Positions 43,621 through 60,823 of a stretch of DNA of 64,000 nt are shown here, one piece after another. Source of the DNA: Pusillimonas sp. T7-7. Its GTDB lineage: Bacteria; Pseudomonadota; Gammaproteobacteria; Burkholderiales; Burkholderiaceae_B. The stretch spans positions 1,860,001-1,924,000 of the forward strand of contig NC_015458.1 in assembly GCF_000209655.1 (NCBI RefSeq), in the 5' to 3' direction. Under the pieces are notes generated by a model that was not told the DNA's origin, ran no database searches, and saw nothing but the letters and a program-made list of their open reading frames with translations. The translations under genes were made by a program, and so were the position numbers. Each line of letters opens with the position of its first letter. The stretch's first letter is position 1.

Positions 43621-43778
43621 CGTAATAGCATCGCGCATATGCCCCTCAGGACCGATTTTCAGCGCCTTCTCAGCCTGTGGATAAGTGCTTTTTACCGTCG
43701 TCATAGCATCGCGCCTGCATCGTCATAAGATCGCGGCTTTTCGTCATAGCATCGCGCTTTATCGTCATAACATCGCGC
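43621..43778 (+). repeat. Iteron array of the plasmid origin (oriV)
   Basis: There are five copies of a 16-bp motif with consensus CGTCATAGCATCGCGC, at 43621-43636, 43699-43714, 43721-43736, 43742-43757 and 43763-43778. The last four start 22, 21 and 21 bp apart, about two helical turns. The array follows trfA and is the expected binding site of its product. A DnaA-box match (TGTGGATAA, 43676-43684) lies between the first and second copies. Confidence 0.85.
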
Positions 43779-44519: not shown

Positions 44520-44553
44520 GCGGCACTGTCTTCAACCCAACTCCTGGAAACCT

Positions 44554-45695: not shown

Positions 45696-45706
45696 GCTCA
45701 GCCACC

Positions 45707-46141
45707 ATGGAATCACACTCGAATTCCAGTGGCGCTCGTACCAAGCTGGATTTGCTGTACCACGAGGTGCTGGGTGAAGTCGCAGGCCTCGTGGACCGAC
45801 TGGAAAGCGCCACACAACGTCTGGATGCAGTCCAAAAGCAGATGCAATCCATGGGTGAAGCGCAGCAAGTCCTGCCGCAACAACTCAGTCGCCACCTGAC
45901 CTCCACGATGGAAGCGGCAGCCAAACCCATCAATCAGCAGGCTCAACACGCCATCCAGACCATGCTGGATGACACTGGCAGCCGGCTGGATCAATTGACC
46001 CGGGATGCCGCGAAGTACGCCAGCATCGCCCACCGATCCGCACGACGCATGGCGATCATCGCCTTGGTCGTAGGCGGCACAGCAGGCATTCTGGGCGGCT
46101 TGCTGGCAGGCCTGGCTCTGGGCCAGATTCTTATCTCTTGA
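45707..46141 (+). CDS. StbC-like membrane-anchored protein
   Basis: This is a 144-residue protein. The long N-terminal part is a helical coiled coil (EVAGLVDRLESATQRLDAVQKQMQ, then SRLDQLTRDAAKYAS). A C-terminal hydrophobic segment (MAIIALVVGGTAGILGGLLAGLALGQILI) would anchor it in the inner membrane. The layout and place, after the StbB-like ATPase and 12 bp before the coupling-protein gene, agree with StbC or a TraM-like relaxosome-to-membrane linker. The function is unproven. Confidence 0.55.
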   Translation: MESHSNSSGARTKLDLLYHEVLGEVAGLVDRLESATQRLDAVQKQMQSMGEAQQVLPQQLSRHLTSTMEAAAKPINQQAQHAIQTMLDDTGSRLDQLTRDAAKYASIAHRSARRMAIIALVVGGTAGILGGLLAGLALGQILIS

Positions 46142-46153
46142 GGATCGACACTC

Positions 46154-47800
46154 ATGTCCACCCTGATCTCCCCCATTACGCGGCGGCGCATTGCCGCGTT
46201 CTCTTTGGCGCTCTTGCCGACTGGTGCCTGGATGGCTGCCGCCACCTGGGGCAGCCATATGCACTGGCGAGACTGGAACACCAGAACGTTCTGGCATTTT
46301 GTGATGCTGACGCCGCAGTACCCTGTGCTCTACGGCTCACTGGGCATCGGTCTGGTTCTCGCATTGGTACTTATCCTGCTTATCGGGCGCACCGCCAGAA
46401 CTGAAGGATTTGAGGGCGCTGCCTACAAACGCTTTGTGCGTGGCACACGCACCACCTCGGCAAAAAGCCTGGCTCGCCAGTGCCAAGAAAGTGGCAAACA
46501 GCAAATCGACGTGGGCGGCATCCCCATGCCGACCGCCAACGAAAACCTTCATTTGCTCATCAGCGGTGCCACGGGTTCCGGTAAATCGGTGTTGTTGCGC
46601 AACATGGCCGCTTCGGTACTCAAGCGCTCACAGCACGACATGAGCAACCGTTTGCTCGGCCAAACGCCCGAGCGCAACGACCGGATGATCGTGATTGACC
46701 CCAATGGGGACCTACTCAGCAAATTCTGGCAACCCAGCGACGTGATCCTGAATCCCTATGACGCCCGCAGCCAGGGCTGGGCGTTCTTCAATGAAGTTCG
46801 CGCCGACTACGACTGGAAGCGGCTGGCCCATTCCATGGTTCCCATGAGCCAAGACAATAACGCTGAAGAATGGAACGACTTCGGCCGCCTACTGCTACGC
46901 GAGACGGCCAGGAAGCTTCACCAGTTGCAGGGCGACGCAGCTAGCGTCATGGATCTCTTTCGCCTATGCACCATCGAAGACCCCAAGGTCTTGAAGCAGT
47001 TCCTGGAAGGCACGCTGGCCGAATCCCTTTTTGTTGGCTCCAGCGAAGCCAGCAAGGCGCTGTCTTCTGCCCGCTTCGTGCTGTCGAACAAGCTTTCGGA
47101 ACACACTGGCATGAAGCCCGGGCGGTTCTCCATTCGAGACTGGCTGGTTAAGCCCGACGGTGGAAACCTGTACATCAACTGGCGCGAAGACATGATGAGT
47201 TCCATGAAACCGCTAGTGTCGTCATGGGCAGATGTATTCATCACGTCGATTCTGTCCAGGCCGGAAAGCACGCACCGGCGCTGGTGGCTGTTCATTGATG
47301 AACTGGCCAGCCTGGAAGCCCTGCCTTCACTGGAGGCCGGCCTAACCAAGGGCCGGAAAAATGGTCTGCGCATCGTGGCGGGATTGCAGAGTACGTCACA
47401 GTTGGAACACATCTATGGGCGCACCATGGCCACTACCATCCGGGCGAGCTTTCGTAATCTGGCTGTACTGGGCGGCTCGCGTACCGATCCACAGACAGCG
47501 AAGGATATGAGCGAAAGCCTGGGCAAACATGAGGTTGAACGGCCCAAGTACAGTATCAGTCGCAGTGTGGACCATCGCAACACCTCGGATAATATGGATC
47601 GGACGACGGAAGACGTCGTAACGGCGGCACAGATACAGTCGCTGCCAGCACTGGGCGGGTATGTAGCCTTGGCGGGGGATTTTCCGATTGCGAGGGTGGG
47701 TTTGCCGTTCAGGGAGTTTGTTGTGTCTGCGGCGGCGTTTCAAGAGTCTGGAAAAGCGCTACATACTGCTACATCCACAACGACACCATCTAATGGATAG
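46154..47800 (+). CDS. trwB: TrwB/TraD-type coupling protein (VirD4 class)
   Basis: This is a 548-residue type IV coupling ATPase that brings the relaxase-DNA complex to the secretion channel. Two N-terminal membrane helices lie at about residues 12-33 and 60-80. Walker A is ISGATGSGKSVLLRN near residue 137, Walker B is RWWLFIDELASLEALPSLEAGLTKGRKNG, and RIVAGLQSTSQLEHIYG is also present. This resembles TrwB/TraD rather than Agrobacterium VirD4. It overlaps no neighbour; the relaxase gene begins 154 bp later, after a pair of DnaA-box-like sites. Confidence 0.93.
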   Translation: MSTLISPITRRRIAAFSLALLPTGAWMAAATWGSHMHWRDWNTRTFWHFVMLTPQYPVLYGSLGIGLVLALVLILLIGRTARTEGFEGAAYKRFVRGTRTTSAKSLARQCQESGKQQIDVGGIPMPTANENLHLLISGATGSGKSVLLRNMAASVLKRSQHDMSNRLLGQTPERNDRMIVIDPNGDLLSKFWQPSDVILNPYDARSQGWAFFNEVRADYDWKRLAHSMVPMSQDNNAEEWNDFGRLLLRETARKLHQLQGDAASVMDLFRLCTIEDPKVLKQFLEGTLAESLFVGSSEASKALSSARFVLSNKLSEHTGMKPGRFSIRDWLVKPDGGNLYINWREDMMSSMKPLVSSWADVFITSILSRPESTHRRWWLFIDELASLEALPSLEAGLTKGRKNGLRIVAGLQSTSQLEHIYGRTMATTIRASFRNLAVLGGSRTDPQTAKDMSESLGKHEVERPKYSISRSVDHRNTSDNMDRTTEDVVTAAQIQSLPALGGYVALAGDFPIARVGLPFREFVVSAAAFQESGKALHTATSTTTPSNG

Positions 47801-47831
47801 ACCAATCGATCACGATTAGTTGCCCCGCCAC

Positions 47832-47854
47832 TTATCCACATAATCTGTGGATAA
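47832..47854. repeat. Two head-to-head DnaA boxes between coupling protein and relaxase
   Basis: TTATCCACA (47832-47840) and TGTGGATAA (47846-47854) are perfect DnaA-box sequences in inverted orientation, separated by five bases (TAATC), forming a 23-bp dyad. They lie in the 154-bp gap before the relaxase gene, 4 kb from the iteron origin. They could tie relaxase expression to DnaA level or belong to a second origin element. Confidence 0.6.
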
Positions 47855-47954
47855 ACTTGTGTAAACCCTTCCTCCTTACCTTCAAGAGCTAGCACTGGTA
47901 AGGGTTAGTGCCCTGCTGGCCAATTTCTCGCCGCCACCCTTGCCTGGAGCTCAC

Positions 47955-50852
47955 ATGATCTCGCACAGCCAGATCTATCGCGCCCGCGCGTCCCTTGCAA
48001 CCCACTACTACGCCGATCAAGCCGATGATTACTACAGCCGTGACGGCAACGCCGCCACGTGGCAAGGCGAAGGCGCTCGACGTCTGGGGGCCATCGGTGA
48101 AATCGACCCTCAACGCTTCAAAGCCATGCTGCAGGGCGATTTTGGCCGTGGCGTCGCAGCTGGGCGGTCGATTCGCAGGGATGCGAAAGCCCGCGCTGCT
48201 CTCGATCTGACCTTCGGCGCGCCCAAAAGCATCACCATGCAGGCCTTGATCGGTGGCGACGAACGCCTGATTCACGCCAATGATAAAGCGGTCGCTGCTG
48301 CTCTCACTTATGTCGAGCAGCACCTAACCATGGGCCGCCGCAAGGAAAGCGGCAAGTCAAGGGTAGAACACACAGGTAATCTCATTATTGCCAAGTTCCG
48401 CCACGAAACCGCACGCCCTACCCAAGGCGCTGCCCCCGATCCTCATCTGCACATTCACGCCCTACTGATGAATTTGACTCAGCGGGCCGACGGCAGTTGG
48501 GTGGCGTTGTCCAATGAAGAAATCTTCAAGCTGCTGCGGGTGACGGACTCGATATACCAAGCGGAACTTGAACGCAATGTCCGTGCTCTGGGGTACGCGG
48601 TTCGCCATGAAAAGAGCCATATTGAACTGGCCCATATCAGCCGTGAGCAGATCGAGTTTTTCAGTAAACGTAGCACCGGCATCACGGCTGAATTGTCCGC
48701 ACGCGGCACCAACCGTGAAGAAGCCCCTCACGCCCTGCGCCAAGGCATTACCTTGGCCCACCGCCAGGAGAAGGCACAGGAACTCAGCCGGACGGAACTG
48801 CATCGGCAATGGCGTGCTGCCGCTGCAGGGATCGGGATGCAGTTTGACCACGCAAGACAACAAGCAGATATCCAGCCGACACGGGACTTGGAGCAATCTT
48901 CTTACCTGGTGGCTCAAGCCTCGCTGAACTGGGCGATCCAGCATCTGGCCGAAAGGGAATCCGTCATGCCTCTGGCGGATTTGCTGCAAAACGCCGTTCG
49001 CCATGCCGGTGGCCATACGAATATCACAGCCATTCAGGCAGCGATCCAGGAACGTGTGGAGTCCGGCGCATTGATCCGGGAAGCACCGCACTACCGCAGC
49101 ACTCTAGACATGCAAGACCTTCCCTTGACGCGCGAAGGCTGGGCTGCAGAAGTCATACGTCTGCGCGGCCTGCCTCAGGACACCGCCCTGCAACTGGTTG
49201 ACCAAGCCATTGCCGAAGGACGCCTGCTGATGGAAAGCCCACGCTATGCAACCCGAAAGGCCTTTGAGGTTGAATTCAGAATAATGGCCGCCGAACATGC
49301 TGGCCGCAGTGCCTGGCACGCCATAATTACCGACACCAATGCCGAAACCAGCCTGGACACACGCCTGACGCCAGGCCAGCGCGAGGCCGTCATGTTGATC
49401 ACGACCGGCTCCGATCAAATCACAGGTATCCAGGGCCTGGCTGGCACGGGTAAATCCTTCGCTCTGCAAAATGCACAAACCATCCTGCAACAACAGGGTC
49501 ATGCCATGGCAGCCCTAGCCCCCTACGGGAACATGGTTCGTAATCTGCGCGAAGATGGCATACCGGCCAACACGATTGCATCGGTACTTTCTGCGTCTGA
49601 CAAACGCCCCTTCATCGACGCCCTAGGGTCAAAAACCATCGTAGTGATCGATGAGGCCGGGGTCCTGCCCGTGCGCCAGATGGACAAGCTGCTGGCACTC
49701 ATTCAACCAACAGGCGCTAAAGTAGTCTTGCTGGGCGACACCGCCCAGACCAAGGCCATCGAGGCAGGCCGCGCGTTTGCCATGCTTCAGGAAAGCGGCA
49801 TGAAAACCGTATTGATGGCGGACATCCAGCGACAACGCTCTGAACGGCTACGCCAAGCAGTGCAGCTGGCCGCCGAAGGCCAAGCCAGCCGATCCCTACC
49901 GCTCCTAGATCAGGTGCTTAGCATCCCGGATCAATTCACTACTGACGAGCATGGCCACAAAAGCCGGGACAGTTCCGCACGATATGAAGCCATTGCCCAA
50001 GCCTATACGCGGCTTTCAGCGACAGACCAAGCGGGCACCATCGTGGTGACTGGAACCAACGCGTCTCGCGTAGCCATCAATGAACGGATCCACGCCCTGC
50101 TCGGCCTGGAAGGAAAAGGGTACCGATGCCAACTGCTGACTCGCCATGACACCACTCGTGCAGAACGCAGCGTAGCGCGGTATTACACCGTGGGAGACAT
50201 CGTGGTTCCAGAAAGGGACTATCAGTGCGGGCTGAAACGCGGCGAGATGTATCGCGTAACCGGCAGTACACGCCATGACCGCCTTACCGTCGAATCGATC
50301 CAGCCCGACCAGTCGCCTACTCAAGCCATGGAAATCATCCCGAAAACCATGTCCAAGTTATCGGTCTACCGCCTGAGCCGAGCAGAACTATCTGTGGGCG
50401 ACTATGTCCGCATTACTCGCAACGATGCCCATAATGACTTGGTCAACGGCCAACTGGCGAAGGTCGCGGCGATTGATGCAAATAGCGTCACTATCGAAAC
50501 CAACGGTCGCCACGTGCAGCTGCCTACAGATCGACCGCTAAACATGGACTATGCATATACTACCACCGCGCATAGCGCCCAAGGGCTGACCTGCGACCGG
50601 GTGCTTTACAACGCCGAAAGCTTCAGCCGCACAACCGCCCAGGACACTTACTATGTCAGTATCTCGCGCGAACGACACGAGGTCGTTGTATTTACTGACG
50701 ATGCGAAGACGCTGCCTGAGCGGGTGGATCGGCTGACGTACAAAGGGCTGGCACATGACCTGCAGCCGGTGGCGGCCAAAGACCTGACGCACGGTCAGAA
50801 CGAACTCGGCGCCCTTTCCCTACGCCCGGAATCTGAGCTAGAAATAGGATGA
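47955..50852 (+). CDS. trwC: TrwC-like MOBF relaxase/helicase
   Basis: This is a conjugative relaxase of 965 residues, close to the 966 of R388 TrwC. The N-terminal relaxase domain has the paired catalytic tyrosines THYYADQADDYY (Tyr18/19 and Tyr26/27) and the metal-binding triad PDPHLHIHALLMN (His164, 166, 168). The helicase half has Walker A GLAGTGKS near residue 495, VIDEAGVLPVRQM, VLLGDTAQTKAI and the late TTTAHSAQGLTCDRV. It nicks one strand at oriT, stays bound to the 5' end and unwinds the plasmid. The ATG at 47955 puts Tyr18 exactly where TrwC has it. A TrwC-type nic site lies 300 bp downstream. Confidence 0.95.
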   Translation: MISHSQIYRARASLATHYYADQADDYYSRDGNAATWQGEGARRLGAIGEIDPQRFKAMLQGDFGRGVAAGRSIRRDAKARAALDLTFGAPKSITMQALIGGDERLIHANDKAVAAALTYVEQHLTMGRRKESGKSRVEHTGNLIIAKFRHETARPTQGAAPDPHLHIHALLMNLTQRADGSWVALSNEEIFKLLRVTDSIYQAELERNVRALGYAVRHEKSHIELAHISREQIEFFSKRSTGITAELSARGTNREEAPHALRQGITLAHRQEKAQELSRTELHRQWRAAAAGIGMQFDHARQQADIQPTRDLEQSSYLVAQASLNWAIQHLAERESVMPLADLLQNAVRHAGGHTNITAIQAAIQERVESGALIREAPHYRSTLDMQDLPLTREGWAAEVIRLRGLPQDTALQLVDQAIAEGRLLMESPRYATRKAFEVEFRIMAAEHAGRSAWHAIITDTNAETSLDTRLTPGQREAVMLITTGSDQITGIQGLAGTGKSFALQNAQTILQQQGHAMAALAPYGNMVRNLREDGIPANTIASVLSASDKRPFIDALGSKTIVVIDEAGVLPVRQMDKLLALIQPTGAKVVLLGDTAQTKAIEAGRAFAMLQESGMKTVLMADIQRQRSERLRQAVQLAAEGQASRSLPLLDQVLSIPDQFTTDEHGHKSRDSSARYEAIAQAYTRLSATDQAGTIVVTGTNASRVAINERIHALLGLEGKGYRCQLLTRHDTTRAERSVARYYTVGDIVVPERDYQCGLKRGEMYRVTGSTRHDRLTVESIQPDQSPTQAMEIIPKTMSKLSVYRLSRAELSVGDYVRITRNDAHNDLVNGQLAKVAAIDANSVTIETNGRHVQLPTDRPLNMDYAYTTTAHSAQGLTCDRVLYNAESFSRTTAQDTYYVSISRERHEVVVFTDDAKTLPERVDRLTYKGLAHDLQPVAAKDLTHGQNELGALSLRPESELEIG

Positions 50853-50904
50853 TCTAGTTTCGGTAGGCGTATCGCAGCAGTCCCGTCACTCCATTGCAGC
50901 CCGT

Positions 50905-50987
50905 ATGCTGTCATCGCGCAGCTCCCATGCTGTCTTCATGCAGTCATAGTGCAGATGGAAAGCCGTCGGTATGCAGTCATTATGTTG
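50905..50987 (+). repeat. Four degenerate 17-bp repeats phased by 11 bp
   Basis: The motif ATGCTGTCATCGCGCAG occurs at 50905-50921, and related copies lie at 50927-50943, 50938-50954 and 50971-50987 (the shared core is ATGC, A or T, GTC). Start-to-start distances are 22, 11 and 33 bp, all multiples of 11, which places every copy on the same face of the helix. This is typical of a protein-binding array. It sits between the relaxase stop and the predicted nic site, where R388-type plasmids carry accessory-protein binding sites. Confidence 0.55.
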
Positions 50988-51150
50988 AGGGTATGGGCCG
51001 GCCGCCCCGTCTACATGCAAAAGTGCCACAGTTGTGGCCCAATTTCTGCCCAAGACATCAATGCTTTACGTCACTTTGTCGACCTGTCTGTCCTACAACA
51101 AGGAATTCGGTCATTTGCTCGCAAGCGATTGAGATACAAGCGTTTTCCTT

Positions 51151-51176
51151 ACCCCGCCAGGGGTGCGTCTTGTGTG
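51151..51176 (+). other. Predicted oriT nic region (R388/TrwC type)
   Basis: The plus strand has an inverted repeat, ACCCC (51151-51155) and GGGGT (51160-51164), around a four-base loop. It runs directly into GGTGCGTCTTGTGT (51162-51175). R388 has, as I recall it, a hairpin with a four-base GAAA loop followed by GGTGCGTATTGTCT and the nick. Twelve of those 14 bases agree, and the hairpin is in the same place. Nicking would fall between 51175 and 51176. The site lies 310 bp after a TrwC-like relaxase gene in a gene-free region. Confidence 0.55.
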
Positions 51177-51417
51177 GCACTTTTAAGGCCACAAATGAGC
51201 GGAAGCGAATTTGGGGTTTTGAAAGTGCTAGCCAGGTCGAAGAGCTGGCAACGTCACGCACCTGGGACCCATCGAAGATGGGATAGCAGCCAGGCTGCAG
51301 TAGTGCTATGAGCCTGATACTCCACGATACGCGTTGCACGAAATACACATTCGAAAAGCAGAACAACCTATGCAGCCATTACATAGGCCGAAGCTATCGA
51401 CTTTTCAACGACATGCA

Positions 51418-51558
51418 GGGGTAAATCAGAGCGGCACCGTCCTGATTTACCCCTCCGAGGGCTGGGCTACAGCGAGGAAAGAACCTCGGAGCCCCACGCG
51501 CCGGCAAGACGCGCTTCTTGCTTGCGCAGTCCCGACTGGCCGGAAATACCCCGGCCAG
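51418..51558. repeat. Cluster of three hairpins just inside the leading region
   Basis: GGGGTAAATCAG (51418-51429) pairs with CTGATTTACCCC (51442-51453), a perfect 12-bp stem. CTCCGAG pairs with CTCGGAG at about 51453-51491. CTGGCCGG (51536-51543) pairs with CCGGCCAG (51551-51558) around a 7-base loop. The last lies 13 bp past the parB stop but has no U run. Strong folds close behind a nic site could start complementary-strand synthesis (ssi-like) or end the parB transcript. The remaining 51177-51417 interval shows nothing else. Confidence 0.5.
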
Positions 51559-51570
51559 CGCGGTAAGGAT

Positions 51571-53466
51571 TTATTCGACCCGAATCCGCAGTATGTCGGG
51601 CAACCATCCGCGACCAGCCAATGCCTGCTGCGCCGCCTGCACGGCCTCACCCTTCTTCATCTTGGCGAGCGGTGCGGCGGCGGCTTCGTCCGCACCCTCG
51701 GTCACCACCTCAATGATGCGATCCTTCGATACGTGCGCTAGGTAACTCTCGGCGCTCGGTTCCCACCAGCGGGCCGGGTCAACCCCGTCGATGGCCGCAA
51801 GCGCATCGAGTGGTGTTGCTGACGTGCTCTCCTGATGCTGCACGCCTTGGACACTCACAGCGACTAGATAGGCCAGAAAATCGAGCAATGTAGCGGTGTC
51901 CTGACCAAGCGCCCATTGCAGTAGGTTACCCGTCTCGCCGCTCTCGTCTGTGGGCATCAGATCGAGCCAGTGCTGTCGCACCCGGGCCAGCTCCTGGCCC
52001 GCCTTGCTTTCGGCAAAATCTGGTGCATATTGCTCAAGGGCTTCTTGCTGGGTTGAAACTCCTATGCCGAAACTCCCGCATCCGTAATAACCGCTGATCA
52101 GCGTTTTGCGGGCAAGCTGCGCCACCAGCACGGCCAGCGCAGTAGCTGGCTTTGTGGCCAGTTCAGCCGCGACGATACCAACTTTGTTTGCTGTCAACTG
52201 GCGCATTAGACGTTCTGAATGTACTGGCCGGGTTTTAGCTGTCGGTAGCGATACGCGTGCGCCCGCTTCGCCGTCCTCACCCTTCGCCGCGTGGGCGGCG
52301 TCCTGGCGATCTTCTGGCCGAATCAAACCACGCCAGACTTTCATGCGCCCTTCCGATCCTATAGTTACAAGTGCCCCAGCAACCGCCAGTATGCTCGTGG
52401 GCCACTGCTGCGCCGCATCCTGAATATTCTCAATCTGCGCCTCAAGATCATCGAACGCCTGTTCCAGCTCTAACCATCGTGTGCCGTCGTCATCCACCAC
52501 GGCATCCATCTTTTCCTCGATAGCGTCGCGCTGCGCACCCAGCTCGCTGATACTTTTTTTCTCCGCCTTGGTTAATGGCCGGCTCTCGGGGTACGTGCGA
52601 CCATAGTTGCGCAGCTGCTCATTGTCAGTATCAAGTGCAACCGAGACCCAACCCCAGCCTTCGGCCCGGATTGCTTCGACCTCGGTGTCCAGCTTGGCTA
52701 GCGCTAACTGTTCGATTAGTGTCCGATCCTGGATGTAGATACTGCGACCATCCTCTTCGTCTGCAAAAAGGTCCCGGAAGCTGCGGCCACCGGCGGCATG
52801 GTAGGCATCCAGCCCAATGTAACGAGTAATACCACTATTGGCGGTCAACTCATCTTCGGTCAAACGATTGCGGATAACGTGTGGATGGGCGCGCTCCCAC
52901 TCTGACAGCCCCGCCCATACGTCGCTCTGGCGCTCCCTGTCTTCCGACACCGAGAAGGCCATCAGCGCATCCAGCGCCATTTCTCCAGCGCGATATGCAG
53001 CGATAAGCTCCGGGGCAACGCTGGCCAGTCGCATCCAGCGCTTGACAACATGCGGGCTGACGCCGAATCGTGCGGCCACGTCTTCGATAGTCTTACCCTG
53101 TTCGATCAACGCGGCGAACGCCTCGAACTCATCGGCCGGGTGCATCGCTTCACGCTGGACGTTTTCAGTAATGGATGCCTCTAAAGCGCTATCGCCCGCG
53201 ACTAACAGGGCGGGAACCTGTTGATCTTCGGGCCATCGGCCATCAGCGATCAGTAGTTGAATGGCTTGCAGGCGGCGGCCTCCGGCGACGACTTCATACG
53301 CCCCGCGCTTCTTGGCCTTGGCGACGACAATGTTTTGCAATAGCCCCTGCGCGGCAATGGAATCGGCCAACTCTGGCAATGGTTTCTGCCCGGGTGTTTT
53401 GCGCGCCTGATAGCGTAAGGAAACGGTGAGCTTGGTTGGGTTCAAATCGATTATGGTATTCGTCAT
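51571..53466 (-). CDS. Long ParB/RepB/Spo0J-family protein
   Basis: This is a 631-residue protein. The N-terminal ParB-type domain lies at about residues 1-110, with RYQARKTPGQKPLPELADSIAAQGLLQNIVV, YEVVAGGRRLQA and ITENVQREAMHPADEF. A KorB-like helix-turn-helix follows (EDVAARFGVSPHVVKRWMRLA). The remaining 400 residues are helical, with no domain I can name. Ordinary plasmid ParB proteins are about 300-350 residues; long ones of 600-700 residues are typical of leading regions (YubM-like of plasmid F). No ParA partner is adjacent. It is the last gene of the unit DUF3560-orf53-parB on the minus strand. Confidence 0.85.
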   Translation of the reverse strand: MTNTIIDLNPTKLTVSLRYQARKTPGQKPLPELADSIAAQGLLQNIVVAKAKKRGAYEVVAGGRRLQAIQLLIADGRWPEDQQVPALLVAGDSALEASITENVQREAMHPADEFEAFAALIEQGKTIEDVAARFGVSPHVVKRWMRLASVAPELIAAYRAGEMALDALMAFSVSEDRERQSDVWAGLSEWERAHPHVIRNRLTEDELTANSGITRYIGLDAYHAAGGRSFRDLFADEEDGRSIYIQDRTLIEQLALAKLDTEVEAIRAEGWGWVSVALDTDNEQLRNYGRTYPESRPLTKAEKKSISELGAQRDAIEEKMDAVVDDDGTRWLELEQAFDDLEAQIENIQDAAQQWPTSILAVAGALVTIGSEGRMKVWRGLIRPEDRQDAAHAAKGEDGEAGARVSLPTAKTRPVHSERLMRQLTANKVGIVAAELATKPATALAVLVAQLARKTLISGYYGCGSFGIGVSTQQEALEQYAPDFAESKAGQELARVRQHWLDLMPTDESGETGNLLQWALGQDTATLLDFLAYLVAVSVQGVQHQESTSATPLDALAAIDGVDPARWWEPSAESYLAHVSKDRIIEVVTEGADEAAAAPLAKMKKGEAVQAAQQALAGRGWLPDILRIRVE

Positions 53467-53497
53467 GATAATTGCTCCTTTCTATCGGATAATGGGA

Positions 53498-53659
53498 TTA
53501 ATGCAGCAGTGTCGAGGCGGACGCTTGGATGAAAGCCCCATCCAGTAAGTGGGCGAGAATGCCCAGTTCGCGCACCGTCATTGGGGGCAAGCGCCAGGAC
53601 TTACCCTGTTCGTGGCATCGGCACACCTCGTGGGCAAGTTTGGTAAGATCAAGATTCAT
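53498..53659 (-). CDS. Small conserved-looking protein, 53 residues
   Basis: This short frame between parB and the DUF3560 gene has ATG 53659 preceded by a GGAGCGA ribosome-binding site. The product MNLDLTKLAHEVCRCHEQGK continues with SWRLPPMTVRELGILAHLLDG and looks like a compact three-helix protein with a Cys-x-Cys-His run. I know no family. Good initiation signals and its place in the operon support it as real. It ends 32 bp before the parB start. Confidence 0.5.
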   Translation of the reverse strand: MNLDLTKLAHEVCRCHEQGKSWRLPPMTVRELGILAHLLDGAFIQASASTLLH

Positions 53660-53733
53660 CGCTATCGCTCCTTTTCATGTGGTCAGTAGTGGTGTTAGCC
53701 CCAAAGCGGTTGCAGCCGTTTTGGGGCATTTAT

Positions 53734-54534
53734 TTATTGGTCGGCCTGCTCGTCCAGAATCCGCATGGCCGCTTTAGCCTGCCAAACGGCGGCGTTATTC
53801 AATTGGCGAACCCAAGCGCCACGGGTCGGACTCCATCGGAATCCATGGCGCTTAAGCATGTCGCGAGTGGCTTTCGCGGGTTTCACCTCGAAAATGAACA
53901 TGGCGCGGTTTTCTTCTACGTCTTCGGCATACTCATACCCCGCACCTAGCACGCTAACCGTCTCGCGTTCCTGATTGGCTTGTAGTTGTTTGATCCGCTG
54001 CTGGATACGGCGAATGTTCGCGTTGTTGTTAGTCAAGGCATAAGACGGGAAGCCGACACGCCCGGCAAAGTCCGGCGTAAGCAGTTTCTGGGCGCTATCT
54101 TTCGAATATCCAAGCACAAGCAAAGCGTTATGCTGGCCCTCTGGGTTGTCCTTGTATTTACGGATCACCTGATTACTTTTCTTCATCCGCTCCTGGTTCG
54201 CTGTCAGTTGTTCCACTTGGTGCATGAGCTTCTTTATGGCGTCCGGGTCATCGCTCGATATGCCGCCATAGCCTACGGCTGCTGCCTCCTGTGCATAGTG
54301 GTCAGCCCTTTTTTCCAAATCAAAGGCTTTGCCATATGTGTTATGAATCCGCTGCCTGTAGTTACGATCTCGCCCTTCGCTGTAGTGACCAACCAGAATC
54401 GGCTGACCGAACGGAATCGCTTCACCCATCTGTCGCGCCCTGTCGTATGTTGTTTTGGCCTGCGCCTTGGCCTGCATCGCCTGGGCTTGCAGTCTGGCTT
54501 TACGATCTGCCTGCTTTGCTTCGTAGTGGTTCAT
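53734..54534 (-). CDS. DUF3560-family protein
   Basis: This is a 266-residue soluble protein. The N-terminus is a charged helix (MNHYEAKQADRKARLQAQAMQAKAQAKTTYDRARQM). It is followed by GQPILVGHYSEGRDRNYRQRIHNTYGKAFDLEKRADHYAQEA, the characteristic DUF3560 block, then a coiled coil and a C-terminal part (KRHGFRWSPTRGAWVRQLNN). DUF3560 proteins occur in plasmids and integrative elements near radC, parB and anti-restriction genes; their function is unknown. I set the start at ATG 54534 at MNHYEAKQ, with GAAGGAA upstream inside leader copy A. It heads the unit that includes orf53 and parB. Confidence 0.8.
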   Translation of the reverse strand: MNHYEAKQADRKARLQAQAMQAKAQAKTTYDRARQMGEAIPFGQPILVGHYSEGRDRNYRQRIHNTYGKAFDLEKRADHYAQEAAAVGYGGISSDDPDAIKKLMHQVEQLTANQERMKKSNQVIRKYKDNPEGQHNALLVLGYSKDSAQKLLTPDFAGRVGFPSYALTNNNANIRRIQQRIKQLQANQERETVSVLGAGYEYAEDVEENRAMFIFEVKPAKATRDMLKRHGFRWSPTRGAWVRQLNNAAVWQAKAAMRILDEQADQ

Positions 54535-54542
54535 GTCGCTTT

Positions 54543-54909
54543 CCTTCAAAAAATGCGCGGTGGCGCGGTAGTGATTTCATTGCTGACCGGGCCTGAAGAT
54601 TCTTGAGCCCGTTTGTAGGTTTTTGCTGCCGGGTCGTGTGCTGGCCCCATCGCGTTTTGCCGCCAGTCCTGTGAGTTCCATCGCCCTTGCCGTGCTGAAT
54701 CACGCAATGACTAGTGGAAAGGGGGAAGATTTGTAAAAGTTGCGTAGCGGGTTTTATGAACACCCCCTTGAAGCGCCGGAACGTAGTGATACAGTCGGCG
54801 TTTTAGGGCGATGGAACCCTCAGGACCAGGCTGGCGATGTCACCACACACAATCCGGCAGCAGCCCGCGCGGCGAGCGCCACCATCACCGAGGCGGTGAT
54901 CTAAATTGA
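54543..54909 (-). repeat. Leader repeat copy A (candidate single-stranded-DNA promoter) before the DUF3560 gene
   Basis: This is a non-coding block of about 367 bp that is colinear with copy B (55643-56012). Shared segments in plus-strand order are CCTTCAAAA (the ribosome-binding site on the gene strand), GCTGACCGG, GAAGATTC, GTAGGTTTT, GCCTTGCCGTGCTGAA (one base differs), TACAGTCGGCGTTTT (54790), CCCGCGCGGCGAGCGCC and GATCTAAATTGA. The hairpin ATCACCG/CGGTGAT with a three-base loop lies at 54884-54900. The matching hairpin in copy B has different bases but the same pairing. Confidence 0.7.
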
Positions 54910-54954
54910 AGACAGTTACGCAGCTGTATCCAGCTTGCGCCAGCAAGCCGCTAT

Positions 54955-54980
54955 GCCCGTCCCGGCACACCGGGACGGGC
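54955..54980 (+). terminator. GC-rich hairpin with T-rich plus-strand flank
   Basis: GCCCGTCCCGG (54955-54965) pairs perfectly with CCGGGACGGGC (54970-54980) around a four-base loop, followed on the plus strand by CTGCTTTTG. It has the look of a terminator for plus-strand transcription, but no plus-strand gene precedes it. It may instead be a fold of the transferred strand in the gap between radC and leader copy A. Confidence 0.5.
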
Positions 54981-55013
54981 TGCTTTTGTTGAGAACGAAG
55001 AAAGCGGATAACT

Positions 55014-55088
55014 ACTTGTGCGACAGCACAAGTCCAACCTGCGCCGCAGTGCGCGGCATCTACCTGTGCAGGCGGGCTCTCACCCGCC
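55014..55088. repeat. Two further inverted repeats downstream of radC
   Basis: ACTTGTGC (55014-55021) pairs with GCACAAGT (55026-55033). GGCGGG (55071-55076) pairs with CCCGCC (55083-55088), 12 bp past the radC stop. The second could end radC transcription, though no U run follows on the minus strand. The interval 54910-55099 has no gene. Confidence 0.45.
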
Positions 55089-55099
55089 CTGCTCCAGGT

Positions 55100-55633
55100 C
55101 TACACCTGACCTCGTTCCGCTAACGAAGTCGTGTTCTGCCCTGTCACGATGATGTGATCCAGCAAACGAACATCAACCAACGCCAAGGCATGTTTTAAAT
55201 GCCGAGTCAGCGCCAGATCGGCTTCGCTGGGTTCAGGTATACCGCTAGGGTGGTTATGCGACATGATGATTGCCGCCGCATCCAGGCGTAGCGCAGTTTT
55301 AACGATTTCGCGCGGGTATACGCTTGCCTGCGTCAGCGTTCCATGGCTCATTTCCATGTAACGGATCACCTTAAACTGACTGTTCAAATACAGCACGGCG
55401 GCGACCTCGTGCCCCATACCCGACAGTTTGGCTTGAAAATACCGTTTGACGGCGTTCGGGTTCCCCATGTCAGCCCGATCACCGATCAGGCTTTCGGCTG
55501 CGATCCGCGCGGCGGCCAGTACGTGCGAATCGGTCGCCGCATGATATCGGCCTGACGGGCTACGCACGTACAACGTCTGCCCTGCGTTCATGTTGTCATA
55601 GCCCAAAGCTGCATTGTGGTTAACGTGTTCCAT
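55100..55633 (-). CDS. Short RadC/JAB-domain protein
   Basis: This is a 177-residue MPN/JAB-domain protein of the RadC family. It shows HEVAAVLYLNSQFKVIRYMEMSHGTLTQASVYPREIVKTAL and the metal-binding SHNHPSGIPEPSEADLALTRHL, followed by LLDHIIVTG. It lacks the N-terminal helix-hairpin-helix of chromosomal RadC, as is usual for mobile-element copies. Such genes are common in leading regions and integrative elements; their biochemical role is unsettled. It has its own leader (copy B) with a GAAGGAA ribosome-binding site and is transcribed on the minus strand. Confidence 0.88.
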   Translation of the reverse strand: MEHVNHNAALGYDNMNAGQTLYVRSPSGRYHAATDSHVLAAARIAAESLIGDRADMGNPNAVKRYFQAKLSGMGHEVAAVLYLNSQFKVIRYMEMSHGTLTQASVYPREIVKTALRLDAAAIIMSHNHPSGIPEPSEADLALTRHLKHALALVDVRLLDHIIVTGQNTTSLAERGQV

Positions 55634-55642
55634 TTTCCTGTT

Positions 55643-56012
55643 CCTTCAAAAGCCGGTTGGTTTTCCTGCTGACCGGAGTCGAAGATTCCGAGCCTGGTCG
55701 TAGGTTTTCGGCGTTCGCAGTAATACGGTTCCTGCGGGGTTGCCGCCGTTGCCGTGAGTTCGTCGCCTTGCCGTGCTGAACCGCTGGCCGGGGCTGATGA
55801 ACAGGACCGTGGAATATATGGAGGGGACCCGCCTGGCGGGGAGGACGCCGTTTATGCCGCGAAAGCCAGGGCAGCGGACACGGATGGCGGTACAGTCGGC
55901 GTTTTGGGCGGCGCACTCAGGGCAACAGGAACAGACGGCCCACTATGCACTGATTGCGAATGCTGGCCCGCGCGGCGAGCGCCATCATCGGCCCATGGTC
56001 GATCTAATTTGA
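55643..56012 (-). repeat. Leader repeat copy B (candidate single-stranded-DNA promoter) before radC
   Basis: This is the diverged partner of copy A, about 370 bp. It holds the same ordered segments, including TACAGTCGGCGTTTT (55891-55905), CCCGCGCGGCGAGCGCC and GATCTAATTTGA (56001-56012). The distal hairpin is ATCGGCC (55987-55993) with GGTCGAT (55997-56003) around a three-base loop. Against copy A, stem positions 4, 5 and 7 changed on both sides and pairing is kept (one pair becomes G-T). The spacing from the TACAGTCGG segment to the hairpin is 96 bp here and 94 bp in A. Confidence 0.7.
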
Positions 56013-56251
56013 CGTGCTTTTGGCTAGGTCCGCTAGCACGAACACAAACCTCCACTCCAGTGCATAAACATTACGGGTCCGGATACATGACAAAAATGTA
56101 ATGTGGCAGGCACTGAATTAACGACTTGAAACGTGTGCATATGTGGCATGATGGGATTTGGCCCAAATGTCCCTGGGACGCTAAGAGCATTTAGCCGTGC
56201 ATGCCGTGTGCAATGACCTTGTGCCCAGACCCTTAAAAGGTTTTTATCGCC
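56013..56251. other. Gap between leader copy B and the copper ATPase
   Basis: No gene is visible here. Near the right end, ACCTT (56216-56220) and AAGGT (56237-56241) form a weak dyad just before the ATPase start, reminiscent of but not matching a MerR/CueR operator. The base make-up becomes more AT-rich here, which may mark a junction between the plasmid-like leading region and other DNA. Confidence 0.35.
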
Positions 56252-58585
56252 ATGGCGCAGAACAGTTCTAGACACACTCATGATCGCAACATGAAGCAGC
56301 CCTCAAGCTTCCAACTCACCGATCCCGTGTGCGGTATGCAGGTAACAAAAGACTCACCACATCACGTTGAGCGTCAAGGGAAGTCATTCTTTTTTTGCAG
56401 CGCAAAGTGCTTGGAAACGTTCAAACGCGATCCTGAGAAGTTCCTTGCGCCAAAGAATGTAAACGAACCAGCTTTCGATCAAGCAGCTGCAGGCACCATC
56501 TATACCTGTCCAATGCACCCTGAGATTCGACAGGATCATCCAGGAAGCTGCCCGAAGTGCGGCATGGCGCTTGAGCCGCTGATGCCCAGTCTCGACGATG
56601 ACAATCCAGAATTGAAGGATTTCACGCGCCGATTCTGGTGGACCTTGCCATTCACCATTATTGTCACCGTGTTGGCCATGTTCGGCCACCAATTGGGCTG
56701 GTTCAGCATGACCGCCCAAACCTGGATTGAACTGGTGCTATCGATACCAGTGGTGCTGTGGGCGGGGCAGCCGTTCTTCGTGCGCGGGTGGCAGTCGGTG
56801 ATCAATCGCAGCCCCAATATGTGGACACTTATTGGTCTGGGTACAGCGGCTGCATTCATCTATAGCGTTGTCGCGACAGTCACCCCAGGAGTTTTTCCCG
56901 AAACGTTCATGTCCATGGGCCGTATCGCCGTTTACTTTGAAGCGGCGGTGGTTATTATCTCGTTGACGCTGTTTGGCCAGATGCTCGAGCTTCGAGCACG
57001 TTCGCAGACGTCAGCTGCCATCAAATCACTGTTGGGGCTCGCACCTAAAACAGCCCGCCGTATCAACACGGATGGATCAGAAGAAGATGTGCCGCTGACG
57101 CATGTCCATGAAGGCGATCGCTTGCGTGTACGCCCTGGGGAGAAAGTTCCCGTAGATGGTCTGGTGGAAGACGGTGCCAGTTCTCTGGACGAATCCATGC
57201 TCACGGGCGAACCACTGCCAGTAAGCAAGCGCCCTGGCGACAAAGTGATCGGCGCGACGATGAACACGTCCGGCTCGCTAGTAATTAGAGCTGAAAAGGT
57301 CGGCTCGGCCACGGTACTCTCGCAGATCGTCCAACTCGTCGCCCAAGCGCAGCGTTCTCGCGCACCCATGCAACGCATGGCGGATCAGGTCGCGGGTTAT
57401 TTTGTGATGTCGGTCGTGGTCATTGCTATCGTCACCTTATTCGTTTGGGGCATCTTTGGCCCTCAACCGAGCTGGGTGTACGGCTTGATCAACGCTGTGG
57501 CCGTGCTGATCATAGCCTGCCCATGTGCCCTGGGCTTGGCCACGCCCATGTCCATCATGGTGGCCACCGGTCGTGGCGCCACCCAGGGGGTGCTTTTTCG
57601 CGATGCAGCAGCCATCGAAAACTTTCGCAAGGTCGATACCCTCATTGTTGATAAGACCGGCACATTAACCGAAGGCCGGCCCGCGTTCGAGCAGGCCATT
57701 CCCGCAGGTGACACGGAGGCCGACGAGGTGCTTCGTTTGGCGGCAAGCCTTGATCAGGGCAGCGAACACCCCTTGGCCGATGCTATTGTCAAAGCAGCGC
57801 GGGAGCGCGGTTTAAACCTAAGCGCTGTAAACGACTTCGAATCAGGTAGCGGTATCGGGGTACGTGGCCAGGTCGAGGGCAAACGCCTTGCTTTGGGCAA
57901 TACTGCCTTGATGGATCAAGAAAACGTTGATGTCTCGATCATGACCAGTAGCGCTGAATCGTTGCGCGCCAAGGGTGCGAGTGTCATGTACCTAGCAACA
58001 GACGGTCAATTAATGGGCTTGCTGGCTGTCTCTGATCCAATCAAGAAAAGCACACCGGAAGCCGTAAAGGATCTCAAGGCGGCTGGCATCCGCGTCATCA
58101 TGGCAACGGGCGACGGCGTTTCAACGGCTAAAGCCGTGGCGGAACAACTAGGCATTGACGAGGTTCACGGTGAAGTGAAGCCGGCCGACAAGCTGGATTT
58201 GGTCAGCAAACTTCAAGCCGAAGGCCGAATTGTCGCGATGGCCGGCGACGGCATTAATGACGCCCCTGCCCTGGCCAAGGCGAATGTGGGCATTGCGATG
58301 GGCACCGGAACCGACGTGGCGATGAACAGCGCACAGGTCACCCTGGTCAAAGGGGACTTGCGCGGGATCTCGATTGCACGCCACCTGTCGGACGCAACAA
58401 TCACCAATATGAAGCAGAACCTGGGCTTCGCATTCGTTTATAACGCGCTTGGCGTACCACTGGCTGCCGGGGTCTTGTACCCATTTGTGGGCCTGCTGCT
58501 TTCACCCATGTTCGCTGCACTGGCGATGAGCCTGAGTTCAGCATCGGTCGTGTTCAATGCCCTTAGACTGCGCAAGTCGGTATGA
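56252..58585 (+). CDS. Copper-type P1B ATPase with YHS and heavy-metal-binding N-terminus
   Basis: This is a 777-residue inner-membrane ATPase that would export Cu(I) or Ag(I). The N-terminus has a YHS domain (DPVCGMQV ... [19 protein letters not shown]). It is followed by a second metal-binding motif, [27 protein letters not shown], instead of classic CxxC HMA domains. The core has the transport motif [11 protein letters not shown], the phosphorylation site [15 protein letters not shown] in [18 protein letters not shown] and the Cu-type [18 protein letters not shown] 56252 gives the longest product; ATG 56291 is possible. No copper regulator or chaperone is adjacent. It converges with the LysR gene. 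Confidence 0.92.
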
Positions 58586-58641
58586 CTAGGGAGGGTAACG
58601 TGCCGCCGGTCAGCGAAGCACCAATTGAGCTATTCGCTCGG

Positions 58642-59553
58642 TCAAGACATCAGTGCAGTCAGTTGGCTCATATCCGTTGCAAGCTGCGTACGCATTGCAG
58701 AGATGAACGTCTGCATGAACGCTGTGAGTTGCGTTCCCGCTGGAAAGGCTAGAATGCCGGTGAATACCACCTGTTCGGAAAAGGGGCGGAGCACAATGCC
58801 ACGCTGAGCGTAATCCAAAGCCGTCACCGGACTTACCAAGCCAAGGCCCACGCCCTGCTGCACAAGTTCGCATACGCTGACCGAGTAAGGAGTTTCGACC
58901 ACTACGGACGGCACGACAGAGTGTTTATCCAGCACACTCTGCAGCTGACGACGCGAAGTGTCCTCGGGATTGAGTGCAATAAAGGCTTGGCCGTTCAGAT
59001 CCTGGGGCTTGATCACCGGTTTGCATGACAGCGAATGAGAAGCGGGTATGGCGATAACCCCATCCAAGCGACTGAAAATCGAGTGTTCCAAACCAATGGT
59101 CGACACTTCGTCCGCCATAAGCCCTAGATCACACTGCCCCGACAAGAGTCGCTCGCGGACCTCGCGGGAGCTCATGATTTGCAAGGACACCGTACGCTGC
59201 TCCGCCAGCAATTTCATATTACGCAAGACGCGCGGTAGAAAACCTACGCCCAAAGCAGGCAAGCTGGCGACATTTAGGCGGCCTCCAGTGAACTGACGCA
59301 AGCTACGTAAACGGTGCTCAATCACATCTAATCCAACAAAGCATCGATCCACCTCAATTAACAAGGCCTGAGCCGCCGGCGTGGGCTGTAGCCTGCCCCG
59401 CATCCTGAGAAAGAGAACAATTCCGGCATGTTGCTCTAACCGCCGCAATGCCTGACTAATTGCAGGCTGCGACACGCCCATCAGCTTGGCCGCCTTGCTT
59501 GCCGTACCCGAAGTCATGACCGTACGAAAAACCTCAATCTCTCTTAGCAACAT
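58642..59553 (-). CDS. LysR-family transcriptional regulator
   Basis: This is a 303-residue regulator. The N-terminal helix-turn-helix covers about residues 1-60 (LREIEVFRTVMTSGTASKAAKLMGVSQPAISQALRRLEQHAGIVLFLR). The rest is a periplasmic-binding-protein-like effector domain (GGRLNVASLPALGVGFLPRVL, CDLGLMAD, VVVETPYSVSVCELVQQGVGLGLVSP). It is divergent from the PLP-lyase gene with a short intergenic region holding a LysR-type dyad, so it likely controls that gene and the transporter downstream. The inducer is unknown; a sulfur amino acid is a guess from context. Confidence 0.9.
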   Translation of the reverse strand: MLLREIEVFRTVMTSGTASKAAKLMGVSQPAISQALRRLEQHAGIVLFLRMRGRLQPTPAAQALLIEVDRCFVGLDVIEHRLRSLRQFTGGRLNVASLPALGVGFLPRVLRNMKLLAEQRTVSLQIMSSREVRERLLSGQCDLGLMADEVSTIGLEHSIFSRLDGVIAIPASHSLSCKPVIKPQDLNGQAFIALNPEDTSRRQLQSVLDKHSVVPSVVVETPYSVSVCELVQQGVGLGLVSPVTALDYAQRGIVLRPFSEQVVFTGILAFPAGTQLTAFMQTFISAMRTQLATDMSQLTALMS

Positions 59554-59575
59554 ATATAACCTCTACTTCTAGACC

Positions 59576-59596
59576 AATAACATAATGGAAGTTATT
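59576..59596. promoter_or_regulatory. LysR-type operator dyad
   Basis: AATAAC (59576-59581), nine bases, then GTTATT (59591-59596) form a perfect inverted repeat matching the T-N11-A LysR binding pattern. It lies 23 bp from the regulator's start and 30 bp before the lyase ATG. A possible -10 (TATACT, 59614-59619) follows with a poor -35 overlapping the dyad, as expected for an activator-dependent promoter. Confidence 0.6.
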
Positions 59597-59626
59597 TCTT
59601 ATAGCTATAAAACTATACTTCGATTT

Positions 59627-60823
59627 ATGAAAAACGCTACAGCCGCTCATCTAGCCGTTCAACGCAAATATCTCACTGGCTTCTCAAGCCTGTCGCCCGC
59701 TGTCTGGAGGGCGTCAACGATTACCTTCTCAAGCCTGGATGAATTCGTGGCTCGTAAATCGCGATTACCGGATGGCTATACCTATGGAACTACCGGCACG
59801 CCGACCCACCGTGAGCTGGAGGCGCGCATCGCTGCATTGGACAAGGCAAGCCATTGCGTGGTGCTGCCTTCAGGACAGGCTGCGATAAGCCTTGTCATGC
59901 TCACCATGTTGAAAGCCGGGGATCATCTTCTTATTACGGATTCCGCCTACGGCCCAGCACACGATTTCGCGACGCACCTTACACACATGGGCGTGGAGGT
60001 GGAGCGCTACGATCCGTGTATAGGGTCGGGGATCGCAGACCTCATCCGATCTAATACCCAGCTGATATGGTTGGAGTCACCGGGTACTGTCACGATGGAG
60101 GTGCAGGACGTGCCCGCCATTGTTTCACAGGCTCGCTCGCACGGAATCAGGACCGCAATCGACAACAGTTGGGCTAGTTCTTTGTATTTTTCGCCGCTAT
60201 CGCTTGGCGTGGATCTGTGTATCCAGGCCTGCTCCAAGCACATGGGTGGTCACTCCGACTTGCTTATGGGTTCCGTTAGCACAAACGATATTGCACTACA
60301 CACCGCACTACGTGCTTTGCAGGCGACCATGGGGCAAGCGGTTAGCGCTGAAGATTGCTTTCTTGTCCAACGCGGGCTAGATACCATGACTTTGCGGCTT
60401 GAGGCCCAATCCGTCAAGGCATTACGTCTTGCAGAGCATTTGCAGCGGCATCCCATGGTTCGAGAAGTGCTCCATCCCGCACTAAGTACCTTCAAAACAC
60501 ATAGCTTGTGGCAAGATCAGTTTAGCGGTAGCGGCAGCCTTTTTTCCTTAGTGCTACAGGATGCGCCTCTGGACGCTTTCCGCGCCATGTTCGGCTCGTT
60601 TCGTCACATTGCCATTGGCGCAAGCTACGGCGGGCTTCACAGCCTCGCAGCCTTTTATCACGCACAACAGCAGACCAGCCGCCTCTTTCCCAGTATCCAG
60701 GCACCTATTATTCGTCTTGCCATTGGCCTGGAAGACTACAGCGTCCTTGCTACCGAGCTAAACCAATCGCTGGAAACGTTCGAATCGGTTTGTATCGATA
60801 GCGCAAAGAGCGGCGCTAAATAG
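59627..60823 (+). CDS. Cys/Met-metabolism PLP-dependent enzyme (cystathionine beta-lyase-like)
   Basis: This is a 398-residue fold-type I PLP enzyme of the Cys/Met metabolism family. It has YTYGTTGTPTHRELEARIAALDKA, the PLP loop LPSGQAAISLVMLTML, AIDNSWASSLYFSPLSLGVDLCIQACSKHMGGHSDLLMGSV with the Schiff-base lysine in SKHMGGHSD, and the C-terminal IRLAIGLEDYS. Cystathionine beta-lyases (MetC) share these features and cleave C-S bonds of cystathionine or cystine. No other methionine gene is near; the neighbours are an amino-acid importer. ATG 59627 fits the family; ATG 59585 lies inside the presumed operator. Confidence 0.85.
   Translation: MKNATAAHLAVQRKYLTGFSSLSPAVWRASTITFSSLDEFVARKSRLPDGYTYGTTGTPTHRELEARIAALDKASHCVVLPSGQAAISLVMLTMLKAGDHLLITDSAYGPAHDFATHLTHMGVEVERYDPCIGSGIADLIRSNTQLIWLESPGTVTMEVQDVPAIVSQARSHGIRTAIDNSWASSLYFSPLSLGVDLCIQACSKHMGGHSDLLMGSVSTNDIALHTALRALQATMGQAVSAEDCFLVQRGLDTMTLRLEAQSVKALRLAEHLQRHPMVREVLHPALSTFKTHSLWQDQFSGSGSLFSLVLQDAPLDAFRAMFGSFRHIAIGASYGGLHSLAAFYHAQQQTSRLFPSIQAPIIRLAIGLEDYSVLATELNQSLETFESVCIDSAKSGAK

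Follow-up and report, generated by a model that had tools for sequence, protein, structure and literature searches.

Background

Among described systems, the closest to the sequences analysed here are the Frpo/ssi elements of F and ColIb-P9 (ssi2 and ssi3), which the present leaders resemble in lying in the leading region, in folding on the T-strand into a long stem-loop and in standing upstream of ssb, anti-restriction or methylase genes (PMC9849209, PMC11541004, PMC7736820). Frpo RNA is described as having a dual use, as primer and as early mRNA (PMC7736820), and further candidates, termed Frpo' and Frpo*, have been given (PMC11541004), with which the hairpin family described below could overlap. 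As far as the sources drawn on here extend, elements of this kind are known mainly from F, ColIb-P9 and their relatives. The original papers on ssi and Frpo are reportedly those of Masai and Arai (1997), Nasim et al. (2004) and Bates et al. (1999).

The sso of rolling-circle plasmids and sso1 of ICEBs1 are likewise hairpins that are active only when single-stranded and that start the complementary strand, with several priming enzymes possible (PMC4595007, PMC5714925). Their likeness to the present hairpins is one of description. The sso's have little sequence similarity to one another (PMC4595007), and they differ from the hairpins here, which head leading operons and are repeated. The complementary-strand origin of M13 lies on the same strand, that of the virion, as the phage copies reported below, but the M13 intergenic stretch holds no member of the family. 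Lastly, the CUP repeats of IncN plasmids share with the present sequences the character of repeated leaders of leading-region operons (PMC5371602).

A MOBF element and its putative origin of transfer

The window, by which is meant the whole stretch of 64,000 nucleotides that was analysed, lies inside a 3.88-Mb contig of a 3.92-Mb genome. Its left part is chromosomal, with the nuo operon and a porin, and is followed by a conjugative module encoded entirely on the + strand: TrbM (start 31198), a transglycosylase, VirB4, TrwB and the MOBF relaxase TrwC. Approximately 700 non-coding bases 3' of TrwC separate this module from ParB, DUF3560, leader A, radC and leader B, after which comes a copper-type P-ATPase on the + strand. 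The features that set the direction of transfer are as follows.

33158-35728, + strand, VirB4
46154-47800, + strand, coupling protein of the TrwB family
47940-50852, + strand, MOBF relaxase-helicase of the TrwC family
51151-51177, + strand, putative oriT hairpin and nic region ACCCCGCCAGGGGTGCGTCTTGTGTGG, R388-like, in a block conserved 3' of TrwC and with a counterpart in R388
51571-53466, - strand, ParB-like protein, a leading-region gene
53734-54549, - strand, DUF3560 protein
55100-55633, - strand, RadC-like JAB protein

The region 3' of TrwC was compared across 30 loci with TrwC relatives, the window's own included. A conserved block, at about 51144-51257 in the window, is present in 19 of the 30 (counting the window's own and one identical locus), three of which adjoin relaxases that are only about 60% identical; it was not found within 1.5 kb behind TrwC in the remaining 11. 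An earlier oriT candidate, GCCACAGTTGTGGC at 51025-51038, was dropped, the block conserved in relatives being situated elsewhere. In an alignment of the window with 19 loci, the heart of the block reads ACCCCG-NN-AGGGGTGCGTC-N-TGTGTG. The counterpart on the + strand of the full R388 sequence is CGCACCGAAAGGTGCGTATTGTCT followed directly by ATAG, and the nick in R388 presumably falls between these two; comparison with R388 would place nic of the present element near 51175/51176.

The leading-side genes of R388 are mostly on the - strand, and the window has the same layout, with hairpin and nic on the + strand and leading genes extending rightward on the - strand. This shared layout suggests that the + strand of the window is the transferred (T) strand and hence, by homology, the template of ParB, DUF3560 and radC. 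The DUF3560 protein of the window is 58% identical over 264 positions to the one encoded on the leading side of R388. Leaders A and B thus sit in the leading region of a MOBF element, as the original prediction had proposed while overlooking the oriT itself, and the gene orientation that it had cited in favour of its proposed role holds, since the incoming + strand would be the template of the leading genes. The leaders have this in common with Frpo/ssi.

Two homologous leaders with different inner cores

The two leaders and the elements within them are listed below.

54543-54909, + strand, leader A, before DUF3560, with an A-type inner core; the + strand would be the T-strand form
54666-54826, + strand, long-range stem of A, an inverted repeat with arms 54666-54687 and 54805-54826 that are 91% complementary
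54730-54758, - strand, A-type inner core CATAAAA..CTTTTACAAA, in which the B-type model has no match at E <= 1
54884-54900, + strand, far-end hairpin of A, ATCACCG-AGG-CGGTGAT, with a 7-bp stem and a 3-base loop
55643-56012, + strand, leader B, before radC
55796-55875, + strand, inner hairpin of B, a member of a cross-phylum family (64 bits, E 3.7e-14, with a covariance model of whose 47 source rows it is itself one)
55808-55819, + strand, conserved 5' core arm CGTGGAATATAT
55851-55865, + strand, conserved 3' core arm TTTATGCCGCGAAAG
55987-56003, + strand, far-end hairpin of B, ATCGGCC-CAT-GGTCGAT, with one G.T pair on the + strand

Global alignment of A with B gave 250 identities, 82 mismatches and 73 gap positions, with a score of 61.5 against a mean of -47.4 (sd 7.7, maximum -24) for 200 shuffles of B. 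By this comparison the leaders are homologous, and the colinear repeats that had been proposed are real. Of the ordered blocks that they were said to share, the 15-bp block (54790-54804 and 55891-55905) and the 17-bp block (54864-54880 and 55967-55983) were located, and the others are visible in the sequence, if not counted one by one. The homology therefore stands; what the original prediction missed is that the inner cores differ.

Relatives of B were found in 47 and relatives of A in 43 of 268 genomes of the family. From these genomes and from earlier loci, 63 candidates were reduced to 23 leaders with less than 93% ungapped identity, which have in common one 5' and one 3' block and, L018 and L195 excepted, the far-end hairpin. 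The latter has the described 7-bp stem and three-base loop in both A and B, and the stem is kept with altered letters in related leaders: the mean best stem is 6.46 (n = 23), with wobble pairs counted as half and with the mis-anchored L018 and the stemless L195 retained, compared with 1.73 for 500 shuffles (sd 0.45, maximum 3.15). The compensatory change first noticed between two copies is thereby borne out among homologues. The middle of the leaders, by contrast with these common parts, holds differing inner cores, namely the B-type, the A-type and at least one more (L091, L200, L201, L203, L204). With RNAalifold, the 23-leader alignment folds at -49 kcal/mol on the T-strand versus -23 on the sense strand.

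Leader A is, as DNA, much more stable than its shuffles on both strands (z -5.39 for +, -5.62 for -). The whole of B has no unusual stability as DNA on the + strand (z -1.15), and its inner hairpin folded alone is as stable as shuffles (z -0.07). The conserved T-strand fold is a further resemblance to Frpo/ssi, but B by itself shows it with no more than the stability of shuffled sequence. That leaders precede genes, and that A on the - strand folded as RNA reaches z -7.4, would suit a structured 5' leader, or riboregulator, of the radC and DUF3560 mRNAs. B on the - strand as RNA gives z +1.24, the mismatches described below favour T-strand wobbles over those of an mRNA, and the genes of filamentous-phage loci run against the hairpin sense, all of which make such a riboregulator very unlikely.

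BLAST of A against plasmids returned a single record, and the A-type core pattern had no matches in viral contigs. Of the two hairpins of B, the inner one, and not that at the far end, is informative, and A lacks its B-type core.

Distribution of the B-type hairpin

BLAST of B against plasmids returned 55 records, nearly all of which match only the core of about 60 bases; 46 are from Xanthomonas and the rest from Curtobacterium, Shinella, Paracoccus, Morganella, Citrobacter, Eleftheria and Burkholderia. With the core alone, at E 0.05, 67 plasmid records were obtained, and no match was seen in phage records or E. coli genomes. The T-strand form of the core is 5'-CGTGGAATAWAT..TTTATGCCGCGAAAG-3' (the CGTGG..GCGAAAG form). 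Its exact pattern occurs in at least 118 stretches of species-representative genomes and, by record title and among the matches listed, in five phyla: Pseudomonadota, Bacillota, Bacteroidota, Actinomycetota and Acidobacteriota. In the 268 family genomes it occurs at 59 places in 39 genomes, and the same pattern read backwards occurs in none of them. Because this search required the core letters, it accounts in part for the invariance of the core in the alignments below; no letters were imposed on the outer stem, tip or flanks, and neither the copies from BLAST nor the one in ColIb were selected by the exact pattern.

Applied to the window and to 12 further stretches, the covariance model, R1, matches B and nothing in A, five copies in Xanthomonas, one each in L144 and L145, and two in a second leading-type region of the same genome as the window (L238, 7396-7461 and 12962-13029). 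Genes downstream of the core include radC and, by eye, those for DNA methylase, ssb and DUF3560-like proteins; in a Xanthomonas albilineans plasmid the core precedes DUF932, DUF2688, ssb and a TrfB-like gene. One copy (L034) is, by eye, upstream of a cysD-like gene, a setting with no known single-stranded stage. Of the 86 elements treated below, 19, including Caloramator and two filamentous-phage loci, have a second motif, CTCGCCG-N-GGC, at a distance of up to 170 bases on the 5' side of the core, as against 0/79 in a far-upstream control; downstream of the core it is present in 5/86, four of these at +35 or +36.

Covariation and the folded strand

A set of 135 elements was reduced to 86 by removing those with short flanks or at least 80% alike, and a 47-row alignment was made from those whose 3' linker starts with GT. 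The eight outer pairs of the 86 elements are Watson-Crick in an average of 6.87 of 8 positions; exchanging the 3' flanks among elements lowers this to 4.73 (sd 0.11, maximum 5.07 of 200). In the 47-row alignment 93.7% of cells are paired, compared with 77.7% after shuffling, and 148 cells carry a two-sided change, a number that none of 500 shuffles reaches (mean 45.3, sd 5.2); sliding the partner leaves only 19-38 such cells. Two-sided change affects all ten outer pairs, a count that is uninformative alone because shuffles average 9.0 and 155 of 500 attain ten. By these alignments the outer stem of the inner hairpin covaries strongly.

Mismatches within this stem bear on which of the two strands folds. 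Among the 73 of 86 elements with at least six of eight Watson-Crick pairs, 15 are T-strand wobbles and 3 are sense-strand wobbles (swapped-control share 0.445, nominal p 0.0009); all 86 elements unfiltered give the weaker contrast of 23 with 17 (nominal p 0.04), and a second count on the 47 rows, which overlaps the first, gives 19 versus 5 (nominal p 0.013). These p values are nominal because the sequences are related. Plain folding energy favours the T-strand in 85/86 real elements, but also in 75/86 shuffled ones, which partly reflects composition, so energies alone are not a basis for the claim. On the evidence of the mismatches, the folded strand is more probably the T-strand than the mRNA, and folding of the travelling strand in single-stranded form seems very likely. 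The argument that the folded strand matters can accordingly be kept as far as the preserved pairing and the direction of the mismatches are concerned, and not as regards whole leader B, which is not unusually stable.

The wobble excess fits G.T and G.U alike, and the T-strand polarity also folds better under RNA parameters, as would be the case if the element were a non-coding RNA made antisense to the leaders, in T-strand polarity, and folding with the help of G.U pairs. From such an RNA one would not expect the relation to nic polarity or to the virion strand that is described in the next section. Rfam gave no match up to E 1 in 50000-60000, and a scan of the duplex found no sigma-70 site, although only 0.8 would be expected and this null result says little; on balance we regard an antisense RNA as quite unlikely.

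Polarity relative to nic and in filamentous phages

Of the 59 core places in family genomes, 24 have no TrwC-like relaxase in reach. Where an oriT motif lies within 30 kb, the core is 3' of nic, downstream of the relaxase gene, with its T-strand form on the T-strand in 12/12 cases, and the same polarity is seen in 35/35 cases with a TrwC-like relaxase within 40 kb. The hairpin sense being opposite to the nic strand, it is the T-strand that carries 5'-CGTGGAATAWAT..TTTATGCCGCGAAAG-3'. These counts are drawn from related elements and are thus not independent. In two Xanthomonas plasmid records, one complete and one nearly so, all five copies are oriented like the leading-side genes and like the relaxase operon, the latter beginning beside the inferred oriT, as in R388.

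In viral contigs the core pattern identified 10 loci, or 11 distinct ones with looser patterns. A Zot/protein I gene is present in four of these (L128, L130, L132, L135; Pfam or PHROGs), with a weak match in L136, and three prophage-like genomic loci (L015, L064, L113) were recognised when these proteins were compared with the element loci by tblastn. Zot is opposite to the hairpin sense in 7/7 loci, such that the gene strand, presumed to be that of the virion, carries the T-strand form. Loci bearing Rep agree in polarity in four of five cases, L039 being opposite, and TrwC matches among the phage and element loci tested by tblastn agree in 4/4. The strand with a single-stranded stage is the one that bears the T-strand form in 35/35 cases for T-strands, 7/7 for Zot loci and 4/5 for Rep loci. 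In L128, L132 and L135 the core is situated beyond the secretin or Zot gene block (partly by eye). Its presence in filamentous phages suggests second-strand priming at least as much as a promoter. Copies in tailed-phage contigs, L129 (fibre protein), L131 (terminase) and L133 (by eye), are unexplained by the single-strand reading, no single-stranded stage being known there.

The hairpins of attC or of phage attP are examples of folded single strands that tyrosine recombinases use as recombination or integration sites. In the present core, the arms CGTGGAATAAA and CGCGGCATAAA flank a variable tip and come close to being inverted copies of each other (9/11 identical by inspection), one strand folds better, and a Bacteroidota copy (L016) adjoins a tyrosine-recombinase gene, each of which is compatible with a site of this type. 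A recombination site is nonetheless unlikely in our view, given that polarity to nic is fixed wherever testable and that, from a partial look, no single recombinase family was noticed with the copies. The outer motifs of attC are RYYYAAC/GTTRRRY, and by eye these are absent from the core letters. Dif-like and attC-like readings of the core were likewise considered by eye and found no support.

Relation to classical plasmids and described elements

Model R1 also recognises one divergent copy in ColIb-P9, at 23711-23784, a member that only the covariance model, and not BLAST, detected. Some 95 bases separate the end of this copy from the DNA methylase gene that follows it, and its T-strand form is on the inferred T-strand, with oriT taken as lying before nikA. 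At least 5000 plasmid records, mostly of Escherichia, Klebsiella and Salmonella, contain the 201 bases around it at an identity of 95% or higher. In two IncF plasmids examined the model matches the hairpin with 44.5 and 43.4 bits before the same methylase, which is encoded on the strand of psiB and ssb. The methylase of pESBL, inferred in PMC7736820 to be expressed in the recipient from an upstream single-strand promoter, belongs on our reading to the same gene family as that of ColIb-P9.

No match to R1 was found in R46 (1-37000 of 50969), R100 (37000-70000 of 94281), the whole of R388, the M13 intergenic stretch or ColIb 40000-60000. Neither R100 37000-70000 nor the ColIb-P9 stretch upstream of ssb, taken as the ssi3 region and having by eye an A-tract stem, showed similarity at E <= 1 that would connect Frpo/ssi to the family, from which Frpo/ssi further differs in that the family extends to several phyla and to filamentous phages. 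Within the inner hairpin no -35/-10 pair was recognised. The outer stem often ends in TTGAC (46/86 sense 3' flanks, 29/86 on the other side); a promoter reading of it was rejected, there being no -10 at 17 bases. The Frpo-like role that had been suggested is therefore upheld for the leading region, the orientation and the T-strand fold, and not for similarity to Frpo/ssi in the tested stretches.

Repeated leaders before the leading genes of a MOBF element could alternatively be ordinary double-stranded promoter-operator repeats, as are the CUP elements of IncN, which carry ArdK sites and core promoters (PMC5371602). The leaders have no sigma-70 match, weak evidence given the low expectation noted above, the model finds nothing in the stretch of the IncN plasmid R46 that was searched, and an operator needs no covariation of a long stem. 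A promoter-operator repeat is, in our estimation, highly improbable.

Searches of open-licence literature with six pieces of the core letters returned only papers on unrelated subjects by title. Nor was a description of the family found in the open-licence literature consulted on Frpo, single-strand promoters, ssi/sso, inoviruses, CUP and DUF3560, with passages from PMC11541004, PMC9849209, PMC7736820, PMC10104558, PMC12826799, PMC4595007, PMC5714925, PMC5371602, PMC6289460, PMC9723621 and PMC7414963. The assertion that it had not been described has thus held, in so far as core letters can tell, for open-licence papers.

A proposed start signal for travelling single-stranded DNA

For the B-type core, the fold and its covariation, the likely folded strand, the polarity to nic, the position in the leading region and the presence on the virion strand of filamentous phages are all evident from sequence. 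Leaders A and B are, on this basis, probably single-stranded-DNA initiation sites, producing a primer, an early transcript or both. As the T-strand enters the recipient, its leader would fold and a host enzyme would start RNA on it, most likely RNA polymerase, possibly primase. This RNA would prime the complementary strand and would double as the early mRNA of the leading genes, for which it would be usable since these lie directly downstream in the same direction; the genes would then be translated from it. In double-stranded DNA the signal would be flattened and silent. Leader A, with its different core, may be expected to work as B does.

The choice of RNA polymerase as reader is a guess. 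The sigma factor of Bacteroidota reads different promoters, and the occurrence of the same core in that phylum argues for primase or another reader. A complementary strand has to be started on filamentous-phage DNA as on incoming T-strands, and leading operons need early RNA in addition, so RNA made at the hairpin in the sense direction would serve both needs.

More broadly, we entertain, tentatively, the possibility that a single family of hairpins acts as a start signal, very widely shared, for single-stranded DNA that enters or leaves bacterial cells, on the travelling strand of filamentous phages and, across several phyla, of ICEs and conjugative plasmids. It would be read by a conserved host enzyme, would double as an early promoter of anti-defence genes and would be present, without having been recognised, in common plasmids of the IncF and IncI groups. 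Such a core, the same from Bacillota to Bacteroidota and in phages and conjugative elements alike, would point to one conserved reader. If this is true, the hairpin would provide a sequence handle for leading regions, and hence for anti-defence genes, outside Enterobacteriaceae, and the first transcription and duplex formation of incoming single-stranded DNA would become directly testable in many bacteria.

Other contexts of the hairpin

Leader B is directly followed, in the opposite orientation, by a gene for a copper-type P-ATPase, a possible cargo gene. Two further copies of the inner hairpin of leader B are found in the same genome as the window, within a second leading-type region (L238), where ParB-like and DNA-methylase-like genes were recognised by eye.

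Window 56252-58585, opposite orientation to leader B: copper-type P-ATPase
L238:7396-7461 and 12962-13029 (at about 265.4 and 271.0 kb of genome contig G000:C1): hairpin copies

Dispersed copies within a single genome are also observed. The hairpin of Candidatus Accumulibacter contiguus (L034, L056, L067, L075) is contained in a dispersed unit of ~310 bp, with 95-100% identity between copies, one of which lies 5' of a cysD-like gene (by eye); this unit is possibly a small mobile element. Similarly, four copies in Caloramator australicus (L009, L044, L100, L121) lie inside blocks of ~300 bp or longer that are 92-99.7% identical, one adjoining a transposase-like ORF (by eye).

The Bacteroidota copies (L016, L030, L126) are located near the end of an Rhs-like gene (by eye) and recombinase-type genes, that of L016 being a tyrosine recombinase by Pfam, which suggests that the hairpin is used by another kind of mobile element. 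Copies are also present on contigs carrying tailed-phage genes (L129, L131 and, by eye, L133), for which a single-stranded stage is not expected.

Five leaders (L091, L200, L201, L203, L204) have a third type of inner core, while the remainder of the leader is similar; the inner hairpin thus looks like a module that can be exchanged.
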